From positions 1 through 39,213 of IMG/VR virus record IMGVR_UViG_3300020160_002376: DNA of 39,213 nt; one strand, 5' to 3'. Within the stretch, counting starts at the first letter, position 1. Every line of letters starts with the position of its first letter. The notes under the pieces are model-generated. The model made no database searches. It worked only from the letters and a program-made list of their open reading frames with translations, and was not told the origin of the DNA. A program made the translations under genes and the position numbers. Positions 18,083 to 27,722 of the stretch are shown piece by piece. This DNA is from a virus.

Positions 18083-19651
18083 ATGGCAAAAGTATTAAAA
18101 AAGATATTTATCCCTACCACGGATGAAGTAGTTCAAAATTTTCCTATTGAATCGTGGCACGTTTCACAATCTGTAGATGCATTTACAGGTACTGAGGCCT
18201 ATGATATTCTTCTTTCAGGATCATTAACTGTAACTGGCTCTGTATCTATAAATGGTTTAAGTGATACATTACAAACTAGTGTATTAACTTATGATGATCT
18301 TACAGGGCTTATTTACTATACCTCTTCTAATACTTTTGCCGTTAATAATTTCTATACAAGTAGTGTTACTCAAAGTATTACTAGTAGTGTAGTAAATAAT
18401 ACAATTAATCAAAGTACCATTAATCAAACCATCATTAGTAGTAGTGTAAATAACGTTGCCCCTTCAGACAAATATATCCAATATAATAGTGCTAGTGCTT
18501 TTGGTGCAGATGCATCACTCCAATGGAATTATACCATTTCATCTCTCCAACATGGTACTAATACCTCAGCAACCGGTGATTTTTCACATTCTGAAGGTTT
18601 AGATACAGTAGCTTCTGGTGATGGGTCTCATACCGAAGGACGTGAAACTCTATCCTCTGGACCTTCATCACATGCTGAAGGTTACCAAGCAACATCCTCA
18701 GGTGCAGGAGCCCATGCTGAAGGTCTTATCACTACAGCAACAGGTAATTATTCTCATACTGAAGGTTTTATTACTTCAACAACAGGTATTTATTCTCATG
18801 CCGAGGGTGAAAACACCAGTGCTAGAGGAACATCAGCCCATGCTGAAGGACTTTCAACTATTGCTGCGGGGTATGCATCACATGCTGAAGGATATAATAC
18901 ATCTGCTGAGGAAACAGGTTCTCATGCCGAAGGTGGAGCTACTTCCGCACAAGGTTTATACTCACATGCTGAGGGATATGGTACTATAGCATCAGCTCTT
19001 GGTTCTCATGCTGAAGGTTCAACCACTAAAGCCCAAGGACAATATTCTCATGCTGAAGGATTTTCAACATTAGCTCTAGGTGGTTTTTCTCATGCCGAAG
19101 GATATTTTACTACATCTTCTGTTAATGCTAATTATGCGCATGTTGAAGGTGTTGGAACAGTAGCTAATGGAAACTATCAACATGTGATGGGTAGTTACAA
19201 TATATCATCATCTAATGCTGCGGCATTCATTATAGGAAATGGTACTAGTAATTCTACTCGAAGAAATTTAGTATATGCTTCTGGTTCATCTGTTCAAATC
19301 TCAGGAAGTTTAAATCTTTCAGGTTCATTTGCTCCACAATTTAGAGACATGGGGAGTGCTAATACAACATTTGGTGGATCAGGTATCCCTATTTTACCAA
19401 CTGATTATAATGTTATATTTTCAGCAGGTTCTCCAGTCCCTCCAAATTTAGTAAATAGAATCAGACTCCCATTAGGAGTTCCAACAGGTACAGTAATATA
19501 TTTACAAAGAACCTCAGGAACAAATAATTGCCAAGTATCTGGATCTTCTGGGAGTACTATTAATGGGGCTGCTGGATATGCTTTCCCAACTACTTTATAT
19601 ACTAGAAGAATGTTTGTATTTGATGGGGCTAATTGGTTTGTAGAAGCATAA
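18083..19651 (+). CDS. Tail fibre with fifteen S-H-A-E-G repeats
   Basis: The protein has 522 residues. After an N-terminal region with L-S-G-S-L-T-V-T-G-S-V-S and a polar Ser/Thr/Asn helix or stalk (about 90-125), residues about 157-370 hold repeats built on S-H-A-E-G-x-x-T-x-A-x-G-x-Y. His lies at 169, 183, 197 and so on to 337 with an exact 14-residue step (13 copies), then at 353 and 367. This is the left-handed beta-roll repeat of YadA-type trimeric heads, also common in phage fibres. The C-terminal part (N-R-I-R-L-P-L-G-V-P-T-G-T-V-I-Y-L and R-M-F-V-F-D-G-A-N-W-F-V-E-A) looks like a beta-sandwich tip. It is probably an adhesin, and the flanking repeats suggest it moves as a cassette. 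Confidence 0.78.
   Translation: MAKVLKKIFIPTTDEVVQNFPIESWHVSQSVDAFTGTEAYDILLSGSLTVTGSVSINGLSDTLQTSVLTYDDLTGLIYYTSSNTFAVNNFYTSSVTQSITSSVVNNTINQSTINQTIISSSVNNVAPSDKYIQYNSASAFGADASLQWNYTISSLQHGTNTSATGDFSHSEGLDTVASGDGSHTEGRETLSSGPSSHAEGYQATSSGAGAHAEGLITTATGNYSHTEGFITSTTGIYSHAEGENTSARGTSAHAEGLSTIAAGYASHAEGYNTSAEETGSHAEGGATSAQGLYSHAEGYGTIASALGSHAEGSTTKAQGQYSHAEGFSTLALGGFSHAEGYFTTSSVNANYAHVEGVGTVANGNYQHVMGSYNISSSNAAAFIIGNGTSNSTRRNLVYASGSSVQISGSLNLSGSFAPQFRDMGSANTTFGGSGIPILPTDYNVIFSAGSPVPPNLVNRIRLPLGVPTGTVIYLQRTSGTNNCQVSGSSGSTINGAAGYAFPTTLYTRRMFVFDGANWFVEA
18584..19192 (+). repeat. Tandem 42-nt coding repeats (SHAEG)
   Basis: This is the DNA for the fifteen S-H-A-E-G-type repeats. Spacing is 42 nt for the first thirteen copies. 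Codons vary between copies (CATGCTGAAGG, CATGCCGAGGG, CATACTGAAGG), so the array is old or under protein-level selection and not freshly amplified. Confidence 0.85.
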
Positions 19652-19738: not shown

Positions 19739-21484
19739 ATGGCAGAAACAATTGTATCACCTGGTGTATTAGCAATAGAGAATAATCAATCATTTGTAAC
19801 TCAACAACCTGTACAAGCGGGAGCCGCTATTATAGGACCAGCAGTTAAAGGTAAAGTAGGTATACCTACGATAGTAACATCTTATTCAGATTATTTAAAT
19901 AAATTTGGTGCTACTTTCCTTAGTGGAAGTAATACATATACTTATTTTACATCAATTACAGCATATAACTACTTTAATAGTGGAGGAAGCTCATTACTTG
20001 TAACTCGTGTAGTTAGTGGTGCATTCTCTTCTGCTACCTCATCTTTTATCTCAGCCTCAGCTCACCCATCAGGTTCTCCATACAATTCAAATGTATTTGT
20101 ATTAGAAACTATTTCTAAAGGAGAAATCATGAATAGTGTAGGCCCAACAGGTAATTACAATACCTTATTGAGTGGCTCAGCTGATAACCTTAGATGGCAA
20201 ATCACAAACTCAGATCAAACCAACGGTACTTTTTATTTATTGGTACGTCAAGGTAATGATACATCAATAGCTCCTTCAGTATTGGAAAATTGGGGTCCAT
20301 TATCATTGGATCCATATTCATCAAATTATATTGAAAAAGTAATTGGTAATCAAGTTGAAAATGTTGCTGTTGATAATGGTGAATATTATATTCAATTATC
20401 TGGAAGTTATCCAAATAATTCATCATATGTTCGTGTTAAAACAGTTAATCAAACAACCCCAAATTACTTTGATAATGTAGGAATTGCAAAACCACAATAT
20501 ACTGGTTCAATTCCAATTAATATGAGTGGTTCATTTGGAAATGCAACCGGAAAAAATATTCCTACTGGTGTAGCCGGAGCATATTATGAAAATATTATAG
20601 CTGATACAAATATTCAAGGTTTAAGAGCAAACGATTATACTCAATCAATCTCTTTATTAGCAAATAAAGATGAATTTAAATACAACTTACTAGTTGCTCC
20701 TGGATTAATGTCAGATATAGGATCTACTTCATTTGGTGCTATTAGTTTAATGAACTCTATCGCTCAAGACAGAGGAGATATGATGGTAGTATTTGATTCA
20801 TCAAAATATAATTCCCAAATAGGATCAGTATTAACTAATACAGCAGGATATGATACTTCATATTCCGCAACATATTGGCCTTGGGTAAGAACAATTGACC
20901 CAACCACAGCTAATCAAGTTTGGGTACCTGCATCAACTATGATCCCTGGAGTATATGCATTTAATGATAATGCAGCCGCTCCTTGGTTCGCACCAGCGGG
21001 TGTAAATAGAGGTGTTTTAACTACAACTATACAAGCAGAACGTGTTTTAACTCAAGGTAATAGAGATACATTATATCAAGCAAATGTAAATCCAATTGCA
21101 ACATACACATCAAATGGTGTAGTAGTATTTGGACAAAAAACATTAGCTAAGAAAAAAAGCGCTTTAGATCGTATCAATGTACGTCGTTTATTAATTGAAT
21201 TAAAATCTTATATTTCTCAAGTAGCTGATACATTTGTATTTGAACAAAATGATACTGTTACTAGAAATAATTTCTTATCTGTTATTAACCCATATTTAGC
21301 TTCTGTTCAACAACAACAAGGTTTAACAGCATATAGAGTTATAATGGATGAAACAAATAACCCACCAAACGTGGTAGATAATAATCAATTAGTAGGACAA
21401 ATTTTCTTACAACCAACAAGAACAGCAGAATTTATTCTATTAGATTTCAACATATTACCTACAGGTGCAACATTTCCTGCTTAA
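19739..21484 (+). CDS. gp18: Tail sheath protein, gp18-like, first copy
   Basis: The protein has 581 residues. The N-terminus has I-V-S-P-G-V-L-A-I-E-N, then A-G-A-A-I-I-G-P-A-V-K-G and a segment T-S-Y-S-D-Y-L-N-K-F-G, the standard opening of contractile sheath subunits. The C-terminal third (W-P-W-V-R; W-V-P-A-S; P-G-V-Y-A-F-N-D; A-P-W-F-A-P-A-G-V-N-R-G; N-V-R-R-L-L-I-E-L-K) is the conserved sheath domain near the tube. The subunit forms the contractile outer cylinder of the tail. A paralog follows directly. T4 gp18 is 659 residues, so this copy is somewhat shorter. It has its own promoter-like element and no Shine-Dalgarno sequence. Confidence 0.93.
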   Translation: MAETIVSPGVLAIENNQSFVTQQPVQAGAAIIGPAVKGKVGIPTIVTSYSDYLNKFGATFLSGSNTYTYFTSITAYNYFNSGGSSLLVTRVVSGAFSSATSSFISASAHPSGSPYNSNVFVLETISKGEIMNSVGPTGNYNTLLSGSADNLRWQITNSDQTNGTFYLLVRQGNDTSIAPSVLENWGPLSLDPYSSNYIEKVIGNQVENVAVDNGEYYIQLSGSYPNNSSYVRVKTVNQTTPNYFDNVGIAKPQYTGSIPINMSGSFGNATGKNIPTGVAGAYYENIIADTNIQGLRANDYTQSISLLANKDEFKYNLLVAPGLMSDIGSTSFGAISLMNSIAQDRGDMMVVFDSSKYNSQIGSVLTNTAGYDTSYSATYWPWVRTIDPTTANQVWVPASTMIPGVYAFNDNAAAPWFAPAGVNRGVLTTTIQAERVLTQGNRDTLYQANVNPIATYTSNGVVVFGQKTLAKKKSALDRINVRRLLIELKSYISQVADTFVFEQNDTVTRNNFLSVINPYLASVQQQQGLTAYRVIMDETNNPPNVVDNNQLVGQIFLQPTRTAEFILLDFNILPTGATFPA

Positions 21485-21530: not shown

Positions 21531-23237
21531 ATGGCAAATTTTACATCTTCTCCAGGAGTAGCAATTAGTGAAATAGACAACACATACTTAACAGGTTTAC
21601 CTGTACAAGCTGGTGCTGCTATTATAGGTCCAACGGTTAAAGGTCCTGTTGAAAAACCAACTTTAGTAACTTCATATTCTGATTTCCAAACTGTGTTTGG
21701 AGATACTTTTATTAGTGGTGGTAATTCATATTCTTACCTTACTTCAATTGCAGCTTATAATTACTTCAATTATGGAGGTACTTCATTATTGGTAGCTCGA
21801 GTAGCAACTGGATCTTATACTTCTGCAACAAGTTCTAGAATCGAAAACTACTTCACATCAGAATCATTTTCATTAGAAACTATTTCTGAAGGAACGATCA
21901 TGAACAACTCAGGATCTGCAGTTTTAGGTGCTCTAATATCAGGATCAGCAGATAACATCAGATGGCAAATTACCCAAACTAACACAGGTTCAGGTACATT
22001 TAATCTATTGATTAGAAAAGGAAATGATACTACACAAAGCCCACAAGTTTTAGAAGCTTGGAATAATTTATCATTAGATCCTAACTCATCACGCTTTATT
22101 TCTTTAGTAATTGGAGATCAGAAATATAATTATGACAGTAATAATATTCAAATGTCTATTTCTGGAAGTTATCCAAATAACTCAAGATATGTACGTGTTA
22201 AAGCTGTTAATTACCCAACACCAAACTATTTAGATGCTAATGGTATTGCAGTAAATGCATATACTGGTTCTCTTCCAGTTGTAGGAAGTGGTTCACTTAA
22301 TGGATGTTTTGGAGGTGCTACAGGAACAGTAAGCAACAATGTTAAATTATATAATGAAATATCTTCAGCTAATACACAGGGTGTAATGGGATATGATTAT
22401 AATAACATGATTGCATTATTTGGAAATCCTGAAGCATATAAATTCAATGTATTGTTTACACCTGGATTAACAAATGCTGATAACTCAACTCAAGTATCTA
22501 ACATTCTTACAAATACTATTTCTAGAGGAGATAATTTATATGTAATGGATTTAACTCCATTTGGTGGTGGTATTCCAGAAGCATTAACTCAAGCTAATAC
22601 TAGAGATACTTCATATGCTGCTACATACTGGCCTTGGGTTCGTATTATTGATCCAGCAACAGGAAAACATGCTTGGGTACCAGCTTCAACAGTAGTACCA
22701 GGTGTATATGCTTTCAATGATAAAGTAGCTGCTCCATGGTTTGCACCAGCAGGTATTAACCGCGGTGGATTAAGCACAGTATTACAAGCTCAATATAAAT
22801 TGACACAAGGAAATAGAGATACTTTATATGCGAATAATATCAATCCAATTGCGACATTACCTAAACAAGGTGTTGTAGTATACGGACAAAAAACATTACA
22901 AAAATCTCAATCTGCTCTTGATCGTGTAAACGTACGTCGTTTAATGATTGAATTGAAATCATATATTCGTCAAATTGCGGATGCAGTAGTATTTGAACAA
23001 AATACAATTGCTACAAGAAATTCATTCATAGCAAAAGTTAACCCATATTTAGCAGCAATCCAACAAAAACAAGGATTATATGCTTACCAAGTAGTAATGG
23101 ATGATACAAATAACGGACCAGCAGTAATTGATCAAAACCAATTAGTAGGACAGATTTATATTCAACCAACACGCACAGCTGAATTTATTTCATTAGATTT
23201 TATTTTGCAACCAACAGGAGCTGAATTCCCTGGATAA
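21531..23237 (+). CDS. gp18: Tail sheath protein, gp18-like, second copy
   Basis: This 568-residue paralog of the preceding gene opens with S-S-P-G-V-A-I-S-E-I-D-N and A-G-A-A-I-I-G-P-T-V-K-G. It shares the motifs W-P-W-V-R, W-V-P-A-S, P-G-V-Y-A-F-N-D, A-P-W-F-A-P-A-G, Q-G-N-R-D-T-L-Y and a Q-P-T-R-T-A-E-F-I near the end. The C-terminal third is very similar between the copies. The middle, which is the outward-facing domain in sheath structures, is much more divergent. Both copies keep all the conserved sheath motifs I can see, so both look functional. Two subunits might mix in one sheath or give two tail variants. The tube gene follows after 47 bases. Confidence 0.93.
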   Translation: MANFTSSPGVAISEIDNTYLTGLPVQAGAAIIGPTVKGPVEKPTLVTSYSDFQTVFGDTFISGGNSYSYLTSIAAYNYFNYGGTSLLVARVATGSYTSATSSRIENYFTSESFSLETISEGTIMNNSGSAVLGALISGSADNIRWQITQTNTGSGTFNLLIRKGNDTTQSPQVLEAWNNLSLDPNSSRFISLVIGDQKYNYDSNNIQMSISGSYPNNSRYVRVKAVNYPTPNYLDANGIAVNAYTGSLPVVGSGSLNGCFGGATGTVSNNVKLYNEISSANTQGVMGYDYNNMIALFGNPEAYKFNVLFTPGLTNADNSTQVSNILTNTISRGDNLYVMDLTPFGGGIPEALTQANTRDTSYAATYWPWVRIIDPATGKHAWVPASTVVPGVYAFNDKVAAPWFAPAGINRGGLSTVLQAQYKLTQGNRDTLYANNINPIATLPKQGVVVYGQKTLQKSQSALDRVNVRRLMIELKSYIRQIADAVVFEQNTIATRNSFIAKVNPYLAAIQQKQGLYAYQVVMDDTNNGPAVIDQNQLVGQIYIQPTRTAEFISLDFILQPTGAEFPG

Positions 23238-23284: not shown

Positions 23285-23773
23285 ATGCCAATTTTAAATC
23301 CAAACGAAATATTCTTTACGGCGTTTGAACCAAAACAAAGTAACCGTTTTATCCTTTATATGGATGGTGTTCCATCATATTTGGTAAAAGGAGTAGGAGC
23401 TGTATCATTAACACAAACTGCAGTTGCTCTTAACCACATCAACGTTCAACGTTATGTAAAAGGAAAAACAATTTGGAATACGATCCAATTTACAATGTAT
23501 GAGTCAATCACACCAAGTGGAGCTCAAGCAGTAATGGAATGGGTACGTTTAGGCCATGAGTCAGTAACAGGTAGAGATGGATATTCGGATTTTTATAAAA
23601 AAGATATTACATTCAACGTATTAGGACCTGTAGGTGATATCGTTTCTGAATGGGTAATCAAAGGAGCTGTAATTACAGAAGTTAACTTTGGTGATTATAA
23701 CTGGGATGATGACGGAACACCAGTAAACATCCAAGTAACTGTTCAACCAGATTATTGTATCTTGAATTACTAA
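23285..23773 (+). CDS. gp19: Tail tube protein, gp19-like
   Basis: At 162 residues it is the same size as T4 gp19 (163). It has F-E-P-K-Q-S-N-R-F-I-L-Y-M-D-G-V-P-S-Y-L (about 14-33), the typical strand pair of tube proteins. Residues about 80-120 read A-V-M-E-W-V-R-L-G-H-E then G-R-D-G-Y-S-D-F-Y-K-K-D-I-T. The end carries W-V-I-K-G-A-V-I-T-E-V-N-F-G-D-Y-N-W-D-D, the family's conserved C-terminal block. Hexamer rings of this protein form the inner tube through which DNA passes. It directly follows the sheath genes, as in T4 (18-19), and ends in a strong terminator. Confidence 0.94.
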   Translation: MPILNPNEIFFTAFEPKQSNRFILYMDGVPSYLVKGVGAVSLTQTAVALNHINVQRYVKGKTIWNTIQFTMYESITPSGAQAVMEWVRLGHESVTGRDGYSDFYKKDITFNVLGPVGDIVSEWVIKGAVITEVNFGDYNWDDDGTPVNIQVTVQPDYCILNY

Positions 23774-23893: not shown

Positions 23894-24265
23894 ATGAAAT
23901 TAGACAATTTACGTACGTTAGTAAGAGAAGAATTAAGTAAAACACTTAATGAAGAATACCAAGACAAATTTAAAATGGTTGGTATGCTTATTACTAACAT
24001 TAAAAAACGCCCACAAAAAGAAATATTTTCGGATATTCGTTCACTCCCAGGTATTACAGTAGCATCTGTAAAAGAACCTATGGAATATAGTGAACAAGAT
24101 ACTGAAAAATTTCAATCAATATTGACTGTAAAAGTTGATGGTCATCCTTGGATTACAAAAGGCGGATTTGATCGCTCAAAAATGGAATTAATTCGTAAAG
24201 AAATATTAAAAGTAGAAGGAGTTTTATCATTTAATGTAAATTCTGATAATATTACTTCTCTTTAA
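23894..24265 (+). CDS. Small protein with LRTLVREEL N-terminal motif
   Basis: The protein has 123 residues. The N-terminus M-K-L-D-N-L-R-T-L-V-R-E-E-L-S-K-T-L is an amphipathic helix. It is the same pattern as the start of the unrelated protein at 36134 (L-K-Q-I-I-R-E-E-I-Q-K-V-L). The remainder (I-F-S-D-I-R-S-L-P-G-I-T-V-A-S; S-I-L-T-V-K-V-D; I-R-K-E-I-L-K-V-E-G-V-L-S-F-N-V) alternates helix and strand like a ferredoxin/ACT-type fold. Family and function are not recognised. The helix may be a removable or targeting tag, for example for entry into the prohead or virion; this is inference from its recurrence. It lies between tail tube and tail chaperone genes. Confidence 0.62.
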   Translation: MKLDNLRTLVREELSKTLNEEYQDKFKMVGMLITNIKKRPQKEIFSDIRSLPGITVASVKEPMEYSEQDTEKFQSILTVKVDGHPWITKGGFDRSKMELIRKEILKVEGVLSFNVNSDNITSL

Positions 24266-24306: not shown

Positions 24307-25035
24307 ATGGACGAATTTAAATTACCTACAGAAACCATTGAATTACCCTCAAAAGGTTTACTTTATCCCGAAGGTTCTGAATTAGCAAAAGGTACTCTTG
24401 AAATGAAATATATGACCGCTAAGGAAGAAGATATCCTTACTAATCAATCATATATTAGAAATGGTACCGTATTGGATAAATTAATGAAATCGTTAATTGT
24501 ATCTAAAATCAATTATGATGATTTGTTAATTGGTGATAAAAACGCAATCATGGTTGCTGCTCGTATTTTAGGATATGGCTCAGAATATAAATTTGACTAT
24601 GCTGGTGAAGAACAATTAGTTGATTTATCTGCTTTAGATAATAAACAATTAGATGAAAAATTATTTTCATCTCGCACAAATGAATTTGTATTCACATTAC
24701 CAAAATCAAAAAATAATATCTCATTTAAACTTTTAACCCACAAAGATGAACAAGACATTAACCGTGAGCTAGAAGGTTTAAAGAAAATCAATAAAGACGC
24801 TTCCCCAGAATTATCAACACGATTAAAATATATGATCGTTTCAGTAGAGGGAAGACGAGACAAAAAAGATATAAGGGAATTTGTCGACAATTATCTCTTA
24901 GCACAAGATTCACGAGCATTAAGAGAATATGTTCGCGAGATTCAACCCGATGTTGATCTAACTTTTTTTCCCAACGGAAGCGAAGATAGAGTCTCTCTCC
25001 CAATTGGGCTTAAGTTTTTTTGGCCTGACATATGA
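24307..25035 (+). CDS. gp26: Tail/baseplate assembly protein, gp26-like (short product)
   Basis: The protein has 242 residues. The opening I-E-L-P-S-K-G-L-L-Y-P-E-G-S and M-K-Y-M-T-A-K-E-E-D-I-L-T (33-45) are the marks of the T4 gp26-type baseplate protein family. So is the ending L-P-I-G-L-K-F-F-W-P-D. The middle is predicted helical (I-N-R-E-L-E-G-L-K-K-I). In T4, gp26 is needed for hub assembly; comparable proteins in other phages are chaperones of the tape measure. Here it sits between tube and tape measure, exactly where tail chaperone pairs usually lie. Its last 32 bases overlap another frame that continues to 25321. T7 runs at 24963 and 25015 offer slip sites, so a longer fused product is likely. 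Confidence 0.8.
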   Translation: MDEFKLPTETIELPSKGLLYPEGSELAKGTLEMKYMTAKEEDILTNQSYIRNGTVLDKLMKSLIVSKINYDDLLIGDKNAIMVAARILGYGSEYKFDYAGEEQLVDLSALDNKQLDEKLFSSRTNEFVFTLPKSKNNISFKLLTHKDEQDINRELEGLKKINKDASPELSTRLKYMIVSVEGRRDKKDIREFVDNYLLAQDSRALREYVREIQPDVDLTFFPNGSEDRVSLPIGLKFFWPDI

Positions 25036-25321
25036 TACAGCTCCAATAGCGAGAGCAAATCTATTTAAACAAATTCATGAAATAGTTTTCCACGGTAAAG
25101 GTGGATATGATTGGCATACGATTTACGATATGCCAATCTGGCTTCGTAAGTATACTTTTAATGAAATTAAAAATTATTACGAAGAAGAAAAAGATGCTGC
25201 CGAAGGAAAATCAAGCTCTAAAGGTGGAAAACAAACTGTAATTGATTCTGATGGTAAAGTAAAATTACCTGAAGTACTACAAAAGGCCGCTAATAACAAA
25301 AAACCTATCAAATATAGCTAA
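25004..25321 (+). CDS. Chaperone extension in +1 frame, probably made by frameshifting
   Basis: This frame is open from 24962 to its stop at 25319-25321. No ATG occurs until residue 43 of the listed frame (M in Y-D-M-P-I-W); the listed start is a TTG at 25004 with no supporting signal. The protein-like sequence before that ATG (F-G-L-T-Y-D-T-A-P-I-A-R-A-N-L-F-K-Q-I-H) looks conserved. This indicates entry from the upstream gene by a +1 or -2 shift at the T7 run 25015-25021. The fused product would have about 337 residues: 238 from the gp26-like part plus 99. M-P-I-W-L-R-K-Y-T-F-N-E-I is typical of small tail-chaperone C-terminal parts. A Lys/Ser/Gly linker and a basic end follow. It lies 37 bases before the tape measure. 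Confidence 0.7.
   Translation: MGLSFFGLTYDTAPIARANLFKQIHEIVFHGKGGYDWHTIYDMPIWLRKYTFNEIKNYYEEEKDAAEGKSSSKGGKQTVIDSDGKVKLPEVLQKAANNKKPIKYS
25015..25021 (+). other. Candidate slippery site (T7) for +1/-2 frameshift
   Basis: TTTTTTT is read as Phe-Phe in the gp26-like frame (AAG-TTT-TTT-TGG), four codons before its stop at 25033. A +1 or -2 shift here continues as GGC-CTG-ACA into the downstream frame. A second T7 run at 24963-24969 also allows entry. Transcriptional slippage on the run would give the same result. Confidence 0.55.
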
Positions 25322-25358: not shown

Positions 25359-27722
25359 ATGGCTAGTGCAGATGATAAAAGAAGAGACATAGAAGCTCAA
25401 ATTAATAAACTTAGTGGAGATACCGCTAGACGTTATAGAGATCAACTTGATATTCTAGTTCAAAATAATGCCGCTCTTTCTGAATTTGATGACCTTCTTG
25501 TAGATGTTAACAATAGAGTCTCAGCCATATCTGAAGGTTTCGCCGGAGTTGAAAGCCAATTAAATAGTATAGTATCAGAATTAAAACATGCTAATACTAA
25601 TTCTAAAGATATAACCAAATCATTTACTAGTTTAAGATCTATTGCACAAAAATTAAAATATGATCAACAAGGTATTAATGAATTAAGTAGTGATCAACTA
25701 AAAAAAGAAAAATCTAGAATAAAAATTCTTCAAGATCAATTAAAAGTTGCAGCTCAGCAAGCTCGTGAAAAACAACAAAATTACCAAATTCTGACTGCAC
25801 AAGAAGATGCAGTACTACGAGCAGAACAAGAACAATATGGAGTTATTCGAGATATAAATGCTTTATTAGATAAAAGAATTGAACAAGAAGATAAATTAAA
25901 TAAAAAATTAGGTGTAACAGGTGCTCTTTTAACAGGAATGAGTAAAATTCCATTAGTAGGACCGTTACTTAAAACAAATGAAGCACTAGATGCTGCTAGA
26001 GAAAAAGCTAAAGCTGGAGGAAACGCCTTCCAAGCAATGGGTGCAGGTTTATCCAGTGTAGGTAAAAGTTTAGTATCATCTTTAGCCGATCCTTTAGTTT
26101 CTATAGGTTTGCTAGTAAAAGCTTTTCAATTTTTATTAGAATTAGGATTTAAAGTAGATAAACAAGTAGTAGGTTTACAAAAAAGCCTTTACCTTTCAAA
26201 AGAAGGTGCTGAAGGTCTTCGAGCAAATTTCCAATATATTAAAGAAAATAACCAACTACTGGTTAAAGGATTAGATAATGCATATCTTAGTGTTCGAAAT
26301 CAAGAGGAAGCAGTATTACAGCTATCTGAATCTATGGGGGCTGTATCATTAGCTACTAATAAAGAAATACAAGGTCAAATATTGTTAACTAAACAATTTG
26401 GTCTTACTAATGAAGAAGCAGAACAAGCTTATGTTTTAGCTCGTCAAAATAATATGGTGGTAACTGATGTTACTGATGAAATAATAGGACAAGTTAAAGC
26501 TAACCAAAAACAAACCGGTGTTTTATTAAATTCCAAAAAAATAATCCAAGATACATTAAAAATCTCAGGCCAATTACGTTTACAATATGGAAATAATGTT
26601 AAACAATTAGCATCTGCGGTAATTCAATCAAATAAATTAGGATTTTCATTAGAACAAACTAAAAAAATAGCTGAAGGATTACTTAACTTTGAAGAATCAA
26701 TTGAAAATGAATTAGCAGCTGAATTATTAATTGGTAGAGATCTTAATCTAGAACAAGCACGTTTACTTGCCTTAAATGGTGAATCTGCAAAAGCAACAGC
26801 TTTAATAGCTGAAAATATGGGTGGATCAGCTGGATTTGCTGCAATGAATGTTCTTCAACAGGAATCTTTAGCAAAAGCTTTAGGTATGAATGCGGATGAA
26901 TTGGCTAATTCAATAATGCATCAAGAAAATTTAAACCAGTTAGGAGAAGAAGATAAAAAACGATTAGAAGATCAATTAAATTATCTTAATTCTATAGGAG
27001 CGGTCGAACAAGCCCAACAATTAGAAAGAGCAATTGCTAATGGAGACAATATAGAAGCAGCTCTAACTGCTTCTGAAGCCCAAGCAAAATTTTATGAATC
27101 TATAGAAAAAATTAAAGAAACACTTATTGATATAGTAGATGGCCCAGCTTTAAAATTTGCAAATGGATTAGTAAATTTATTATCTAATGCTCAAGCTCTA
27201 AAAGGAGTTATATATGAGGTTGGGGTGGCATTTGCTACTATAAGTCTTGCATCTTTTATAAGACAATTAGCAGTAGCAGCAGTTTCAGCTGGTACTCTTT
27301 CTATAGCTTCAGCTGCTATAGCATCAGCAGTATCTTTTGGACTAGCTGCAACCGCTGTAATATCAGCTATATATTCTATAGGATCAGCAATTAATAATGC
27401 CCAAGATAAATCAGCATCAAATACTGAACAACTAACAAAAAAGAAATTCAATGAAGGTGGTATTGTTGGAGGTAACTCATTAACTGGAGACAATGTTGGA
27501 ATTAATGTCAATTCAGGTGAAATGGTTTTAACTAGAAAACAACAAGCTGAATTTTATAATATGATTAAAAATGGCGGTGGAGCTGGAGATAGAAATTCTC
27601 CAATAACAGCTAATTTAATATTAGATGGTAAAGTATTAGCTACTACTATGGCAAATACTGAAGAAAGATATTCCAACCAATTAGGTTCATCTAGATCAAT
27701 AGCAAATCACCAACCAAGTTAA
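25359..27722 (+). CDS. Tape measure protein
   Basis: The protein has 787 residues. The first 200 are mainly helical coiled coil (Q-L-N-S-I-V-S-E-L-K; K-K-E-K-S-R-I-K-I-L-Q-D-Q-L-K). A hydrophobic Ala/Ile/Ser-rich stretch lies at about 616-680. The C-terminal F-N-E-G-G-I-V-G-G-N-S-L-T-G-D-N-V (about 697-713), followed by N-S-G-E-M-V-L-T-R-K-Q-Q, is the classic ending of phage tape measure proteins. It sets tail length, fills the tube, and may help cross the host membrane on ejection. T4's counterpart gp29 is 590 residues, so a longer tail is expected if length scales. It follows the chaperone pair directly and has its own promoter-like element. Confidence 0.88.
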   Translation: MASADDKRRDIEAQINKLSGDTARRYRDQLDILVQNNAALSEFDDLLVDVNNRVSAISEGFAGVESQLNSIVSELKHANTNSKDITKSFTSLRSIAQKLKYDQQGINELSSDQLKKEKSRIKILQDQLKVAAQQAREKQQNYQILTAQEDAVLRAEQEQYGVIRDINALLDKRIEQEDKLNKKLGVTGALLTGMSKIPLVGPLLKTNEALDAAREKAKAGGNAFQAMGAGLSSVGKSLVSSLADPLVSIGLLVKAFQFLLELGFKVDKQVVGLQKSLYLSKEGAEGLRANFQYIKENNQLLVKGLDNAYLSVRNQEEAVLQLSESMGAVSLATNKEIQGQILLTKQFGLTNEEAEQAYVLARQNNMVVTDVTDEIIGQVKANQKQTGVLLNSKKIIQDTLKISGQLRLQYGNNVKQLASAVIQSNKLGFSLEQTKKIAEGLLNFEESIENELAAELLIGRDLNLEQARLLALNGESAKATALIAENMGGSAGFAAMNVLQQESLAKALGMNADELANSIMHQENLNQLGEEDKKRLEDQLNYLNSIGAVEQAQQLERAIANGDNIEAALTASEAQAKFYESIEKIKETLIDIVDGPALKFANGLVNLLSNAQALKGVIYEVGVAFATISLASFIRQLAVAAVSAGTLSIASAAIASAVSFGLAATAVISAIYSIGSAINNAQDKSASNTEQLTKKKFNEGGIVGGNSLTGDNVGINVNSGEMVLTRKQQAEFYNMIKNGGGAGDRNSPITANLILDGKVLATTMANTEERYSNQLGSSRSIANHQPS

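Follow-up and report, generated by a model that had tools for sequence, protein, structure and literature searches.

Frameshifting in tail chaperone genes, mostly in the −1 direction, is classical. The chaperone genes of the T4-like phages were reportedly identified by Vladimirov et al. 2022 (Virology 566:9-15), who are said to have proposed a route other than frameshifting. A 2016 review described tail-chaperone frameshifting as widely conserved except in T4, with the chaperone of archaeal HSTV-2 likely expressed by a +1 shift and Listeria phage PSA using +1 shifts in other genes (PMC5009743). Of two later articles, one summarises the T4-like chaperones as a short gene and a long fused gene (PMC10885494), and the other credits Vladimirov et al. 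with poly-T −1 signals in T4-like phages (PMC12846349).

The chaperone pair reported here, from a T4-related phage, is of a known kind, while the +1 form, which is common among its relatives, seems to be undescribed; a search of the open-access literature yielded no account of a +1 site in this T4-related branch. A −1 shift, as in lambda gpG/gpGT and other long-tailed phage chaperones, is commonest in such pairs but does not define them, and here the geometry is +1. The N domain is gp26-like and not lambda gpG-like in sequence. It is homologous to that of T4 gp26 and gp51, both of which match PHROG 150, and in gp51 it is followed, in the same frame, by an extension similar to the frameshifted one; T4, however, has two genes and no frameshift, whereas this phage has one gene and a +1 shift. 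That T4 has a duplicated gene in place of a frameshift was a conclusion reached here independently and is already published. The chaperones of marine cyanophages and jumbo phages have the same two domains, joined at the same place (Phe-Phe), but their second domain follows a U_UUU_UUY heptamer and is in −1. In the Vandenendeviridae, e.g. Pseudomonas phage Adele, a conserved chaperone shift missed by annotators was recognised by comparative genomics, although it is a −1 shift on GTTTTT (PMC12846349).

The known +1 cases (PSA, HSTV-2, prfB and Ty1) are not homologous to this locus; they involve a forward slip in the P site at a slow A-site codon, as proposed here. The +1 site of yeast Ty1 is CUU_AGG_C, one base apart from the CUU_UGG_C of phages of the type of Flavobacterium phage immuto. 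Bacterial prfB has CUU_UGA, where the A-site codon is a stop, with a Shine-Dalgarno-like stimulator just upstream, whereas the A-site codon here (UUU_UGG or CUU_UGG) is a sense codon. In PSA the +1 shifts occur at Pro codons (CCC) of the capsid and tail shaft genes.

Organisation of the chaperone locus

The window is the whole stretch of DNA analysed, 39,213 nucleotides, and corresponds to a record that is a 39-kb fragment; it holds a single copy of the N domain with the +1 ORF behind it (Table 1). Frame 0 (24307-25035, with the C-terminal end ...LPIGLKFFWPDI) and the second frame (open 24962-25321) were both confirmed as originally predicted, and the latter is +1 relative to the former (24307 = 1 mod 3; 24962 = 2 mod 3). 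The two T7 runs (24963-24969 and 25015-25021) were also found, the second lying four codons ahead of the zero-frame stop; the shared bases read CTT AAG TTT TTT TGG CCT GAC ATA TGA in frame 0 and TTT TTT GGC CTG ACA in +1. The fused product, put at about 337 residues, was computed as 337, and the first ATG of the +1 frame, placed at 25129, is at 25130.

Table 1 Features of the chaperone locus and its flanks (positions in the window).
Feature	Position	Strand	Evidence or remark
Tail tube gene, upstream	23285..23773	+	PHROG 4542, E 9e-23
Short tail assembly chaperone (TAC-N), T4 gp26-like, 242 aa	24307..25035	+	PHROG 150; AlphaFold2/Foldseek
First T7 run; not the conserved shift site	24963..24969	+	
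Candidate +1 shift site TTT TTT TGG CCT	25015..25026	+	132 representatives; frozen codons; DNA-pattern retrieval
P-site codon, predicted to slip to 25019-25021	25018..25020	+	
Zero-frame A-site codon TGG	25021..25023	+	
+1-frame extension GLTYDTAPIAR...IKYS, 99 aa then TAA; C-terminal domain of the putative long chaperone (TAC-NC)	25022..25321	+	
Frame-0 stop TGA	25033..25035	+	5 codons past the P-site codon; 4-9 in relatives
Tape measure gene, downstream	25359..27722	+	PHROG 24676, E 2e-5

The locus had been placed between tail tube and tape measure genes, which is borne out by the flanking genes, and the order is identical in immuto and Mel-JY01. A 123-aa ORF (23894-24265) separates the tail tube gene from the chaperone gene; it gave no convincing family match, with weak tail terminator hits only (E about 0.08). 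Before the tail tube gene are two adjacent, similar tail sheath-like genes, 19739-21484 (581 aa) and 21531-23237 (568 aa), the first of which matches Pfam sheath domains. Further upstream, in the tail fibre region, 18083-19651 encodes a protein rich in SHAEG repeats, which recall the head repeats of trimeric adhesins; these repeats probably account for the alternative-frame ORF 18618-18989.

The frame-0 protein matches PHROG 150 (baseplate hub) with an E value of 2e-7, a family that contains T4 gp26 (7e-71) and gp51 (3e-84). The N and C parts were folded separately with AlphaFold2. The model of the first domain (pLDDT 89.8) has as Foldseek matches in BFVD the baseplate hub subunit of Bacillus phage SP-15 (E 2e-16) and T4-like baseplate hub assembly proteins. 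Differences between relatives fall on positions 1/2/3 of the +1-frame codons at 0.29/0.20/0.42, a pattern indicating that the +1 frame is coding. The second domain begins at F-G-L exactly at the site and has an invariant F-G-L...P...R; its model is helical (pLDDT 76), and no relative was found for it in the PDB. A PDB fold search for the chaperone gave no significant match, and its hit to the HK97 tail chaperone 2ob9 (E 2.0, prob 0.33) is not evidence. On its own the C domain matches a PHROG tail assembly chaperone family weakly (E 0.04). The fused +1 profile, however, aligns end to end with that of the −1-fused relatives, an alignment that includes T4 gp26 and gp51 (hhalign E 1.6e-25, 288 columns). 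Comparison of the +1 family by hhalign with single T4 gp26 or gp51 was not significant, and its homology to T4 rests on PHROG 150 and the −1 intermediates, which connect them. These profile matches indicate that the N and C domains are both homologous to known tail chaperones.

Conservation of the candidate shift site and alternative explanations

The comparison set comprised 80 close IMG/VR relatives, extended to distant ones via Microcystis phage Mel-JY01 and a huge phage, and was reduced to 132 representatives (<90% identity). A long +1 ORF continues beyond the frame-0 stop in 177 of the 183 testable loci. The six exceptions are three jumbo phages (L088, L089 and L090), where the second domain is in −1; L192, a distant Firmicute-phage-like fragment with no +1 geometry; and the sister loci L182 and L187. 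A +1-slippable codon is present at the site in 132/132 representatives, and as the site was located by searching for such a codon its presence is partly by definition, while its fixed position and sequence are not. The P-site/A-site pair is TTT_TGG in 118 representatives and CTT_TGG in three; the other 11 have TTT followed by TAC, TAT, TTC, CTA, CGC, CGT, CAC, CAG or TTT. The variants (TTTCTTTGG, TTCTTTTGG, CTGTTTCGC and AACTTTCTA) all retain YTT followed by T or C, and the site is 4-9 codons from the frame-0 stop (5 in 85 representatives).

The site is also frozen at synonymous positions, its codons being the three least variable among 69 conserved degenerate positions of frame 0. The second Phe is TTT in 125/125, the Pro CCT in 125/126 and the first Phe TTT in 122/126, while other conserved Phe residues are TTT in 81-88% and TTC in 12-19%, and other conserved Pro residues CCT in 18-46%; the representatives are related by descent, so these counts are not independent events and are given without a P value. 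The constancy of CCT reflects dual coding, its bases also specifying Gly-Leu in +1, and not a nucleotide signal, whereas the freezing of TTT would follow from the need of a slip for the Phe wobble base. A DNA-only pattern, TTYTTTGGCCTGACNNNNGARTA, run against the whole of IMG/VR matched at least 80 loci. Among the matches listed, the pattern falls in frame, and at the end of a frame-0 ORF recognised by the first-domain profile, in 80/80, and the +1 frame fits the second-domain profile in 78/78 testable cases, the other two running off the contig. The occurrence of the shift site with a +1 ORF downstream is far beyond chance.

The first T7 run was considered as the site and rejected: an upstream TTT[T/C] is found in only 60/132 representatives, in four of which a +1-frame stop follows before the site. 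Several relatives have +1-frame stops 26-38 nt ahead of the frame-0 stop, just before the second run, which identifies the second run as the site. The length of the overlap is unremarkable per se, and several relatives have a +1 frame that opens only shortly ahead of the site.

The 132 non-redundant relatives thus support the predicted programmed frameshift that fuses a tail chaperone pair. Its direction, +1 or −2, had been left open. A −2 shift on the T7 run, of the kind used by phage Mu, reaches the same frame, and the P-site tRNA would re-pair two bases back in 123/132 representatives. This re-pairing is lost in the other nine, e.g. TTC TTT TGG (UCU) and CTG TTT CGC (UGU), whereas +1 re-pairing holds at 132/132, so that +1 is favoured and a −2 shift is improbable. 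Slippage of RNA polymerase on the T7 run, yielding mRNAs minus one U that are read in the fused frame, must be judged similarly improbable as the general explanation. T runs can cause slippage and 114/132 sites contain a run of exactly T7, but at 11 sites the T runs are only 3-4 long, three of them broken by a C (TTTCTTTGG), and the +1 ORF is kept regardless. The interrupted runs TTTCTTTGG, TTCTTTTGG and CTGTTTCGC disfavour both −2 shifting and polymerase slippage, although the latter may contribute where the T run is intact.

A separate second gene, initiated at TTG 25004 or at another start codon nearby and coupled to termination of the first ORF, is very improbable. An ATG, GTG or TTG does exist upstream in the +1 frame in 98/132 representatives (ATG in 48), but there is none in 34/132, a stop lies within about 8 codons upstream in 26/132, and 18/132 have no start either upstream or within 20 codons past the site. 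TTG 25004, at which independent initiation would have spoken against a shift, is not conserved among the relatives. Moreover, the conserved domain starts exactly at the site, with F-G-L invariant, and a separate gene leaves the synonymous freezing of TTT TTT unexplained. A well-placed ATG of the second frame, also named beforehand as contrary evidence, does occur, and is clear in L182 and L187, but only in these sister loci, where the +1 link is lost and the second domain starts at an ATG of its own with a new N-terminus. They are a natural replacement of frameshifting and act as a natural control, because the own ATG occurs only where the +1 connection is lost. Finally, a sequencing error or pseudogene, which a one-base deletion would repair by joining the frames, is refuted by conservation, the same break being present in >170 contigs and in isolate genomes.

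Proposed mechanism of the +1 shift

Programmed +1 ribosomal frameshifting at this site is thus very probably, judging from comparative sequence evidence, the source of both the short and the long chaperone. On reaching TTT_TGG, or CTT_TGG in the relatives that have it, a ribosome translating the gp26-like gene would carry tRNA-Phe (or, at CTT, tRNA-Leu) in its P site while the single Trp codon awaits decoding in the A site. In a fraction of ribosomes the P-site tRNA would slip one base forward, from YUU to UUU, and reading would continue with GGC CUN in +1 to give the 337-residue long chaperone; unshifted ribosomes would read W-P-D-I and stop, giving the 242-residue short chaperone. If the pair works like lambda gpG/gpGT, the short form would coat the tape measure protein in many copies and the few copies of the long form would recruit tail tube subunits. 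We infer both the shift and its one-base character at this codon from the geometry, its conservation, the coding nature of both frames and the tail chaperone homology, which were obtained directly.

What raises the efficiency may most simply be the single Trp codon in the A site, whose slow decoding would drive the shift. CUU_U and UUU_U are known +1 contexts (PMC5009743; PMC10885494), of which CUU_U is the stronger in E. coli (PMC5009743). Around the site, RNA structure showed no excess stability over control windows (mean z −0.3), and among the listed sites no Shine-Dalgarno-like element was seen to be conserved; without either, the efficiency of the shift may be low. Avoidance of TTT-TGG elsewhere was uninformative, the codon-pair counts being dominated by repeated conserved genes.

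A more speculative proposal, which we regard as possible but doubtful, is that YUU_UGG_C is a self-contained bacterial sense-codon +1 cassette convergent with that of yeast Ty1, that Trp pausing sets the short-to-long ratio, which would then respond to host Trp-tRNA charging, and that the chaperone family switched between +1, −1 and gene duplication in the evolution of T4-like phages.

The wider chaperone family

The extension is also in +1 in RM378, SP-15, LIS04, GXN1 and the Streptomyces phages BRock, LuckySocke and GiJojo, and in −1 in cyanophages S-CAM9 and AG-345 and jumbo phages Munch, BF, Vibrio 2.275.O, Atu_ph07, XacN1 and RAS14, whose heptamer is T_TTT_TTC or T_TTT_TTT. In the first-domain tree the three modes cluster (3 changes vs 10.3 in shuffles), and L182 lies beside L067 and immuto, both with the CTT_TGG variant; long branches make the deep placements uncertain.

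In the huge phage L088 (LR756511), upstream of 3769, the second domain is in −1 and 21 codons separate the heptamer TTTTTTC from the frame-0 stop, a far greater distance than most members show. In the cyanophages S-CAM9 (around 3194) and AG-345 (around 3203), gp51 lies in −1 behind T_TTT_TTC at the end of gp26, and the extension corresponds to database gp51 (PHROG 634, E 8e-26). Although annotated as a short gene of its own, cyanophage gp51 is probably a −1 frameshift extension of gp26. T4 gp51 holds both parts in one frame, with gp26 as the short form. Cyanophage gp51 has been noted to resemble only the last 20% of T4 gp51 (PMC3037559), and its probable origin as a −1 extension of gp26 suggests why.

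In isolate records the +1 extension is unannotated or given as a short internal ORF, and in Mel-JY01 and some Streptomyces phages part of it is annotated as a hypothetical protein; the reading proposed here corrects the annotation for immuto, Mel-JY01, SP-15, LIS04, GXN1 and the Streptomyces phages. The natural variants of the site form a series on which sense-codon +1 frameshifting can be measured in bacteria. Both chaperones appear to be made via a +1 shift at a near-invariant site in a large branch of T4-related phages that is mostly unannotated.
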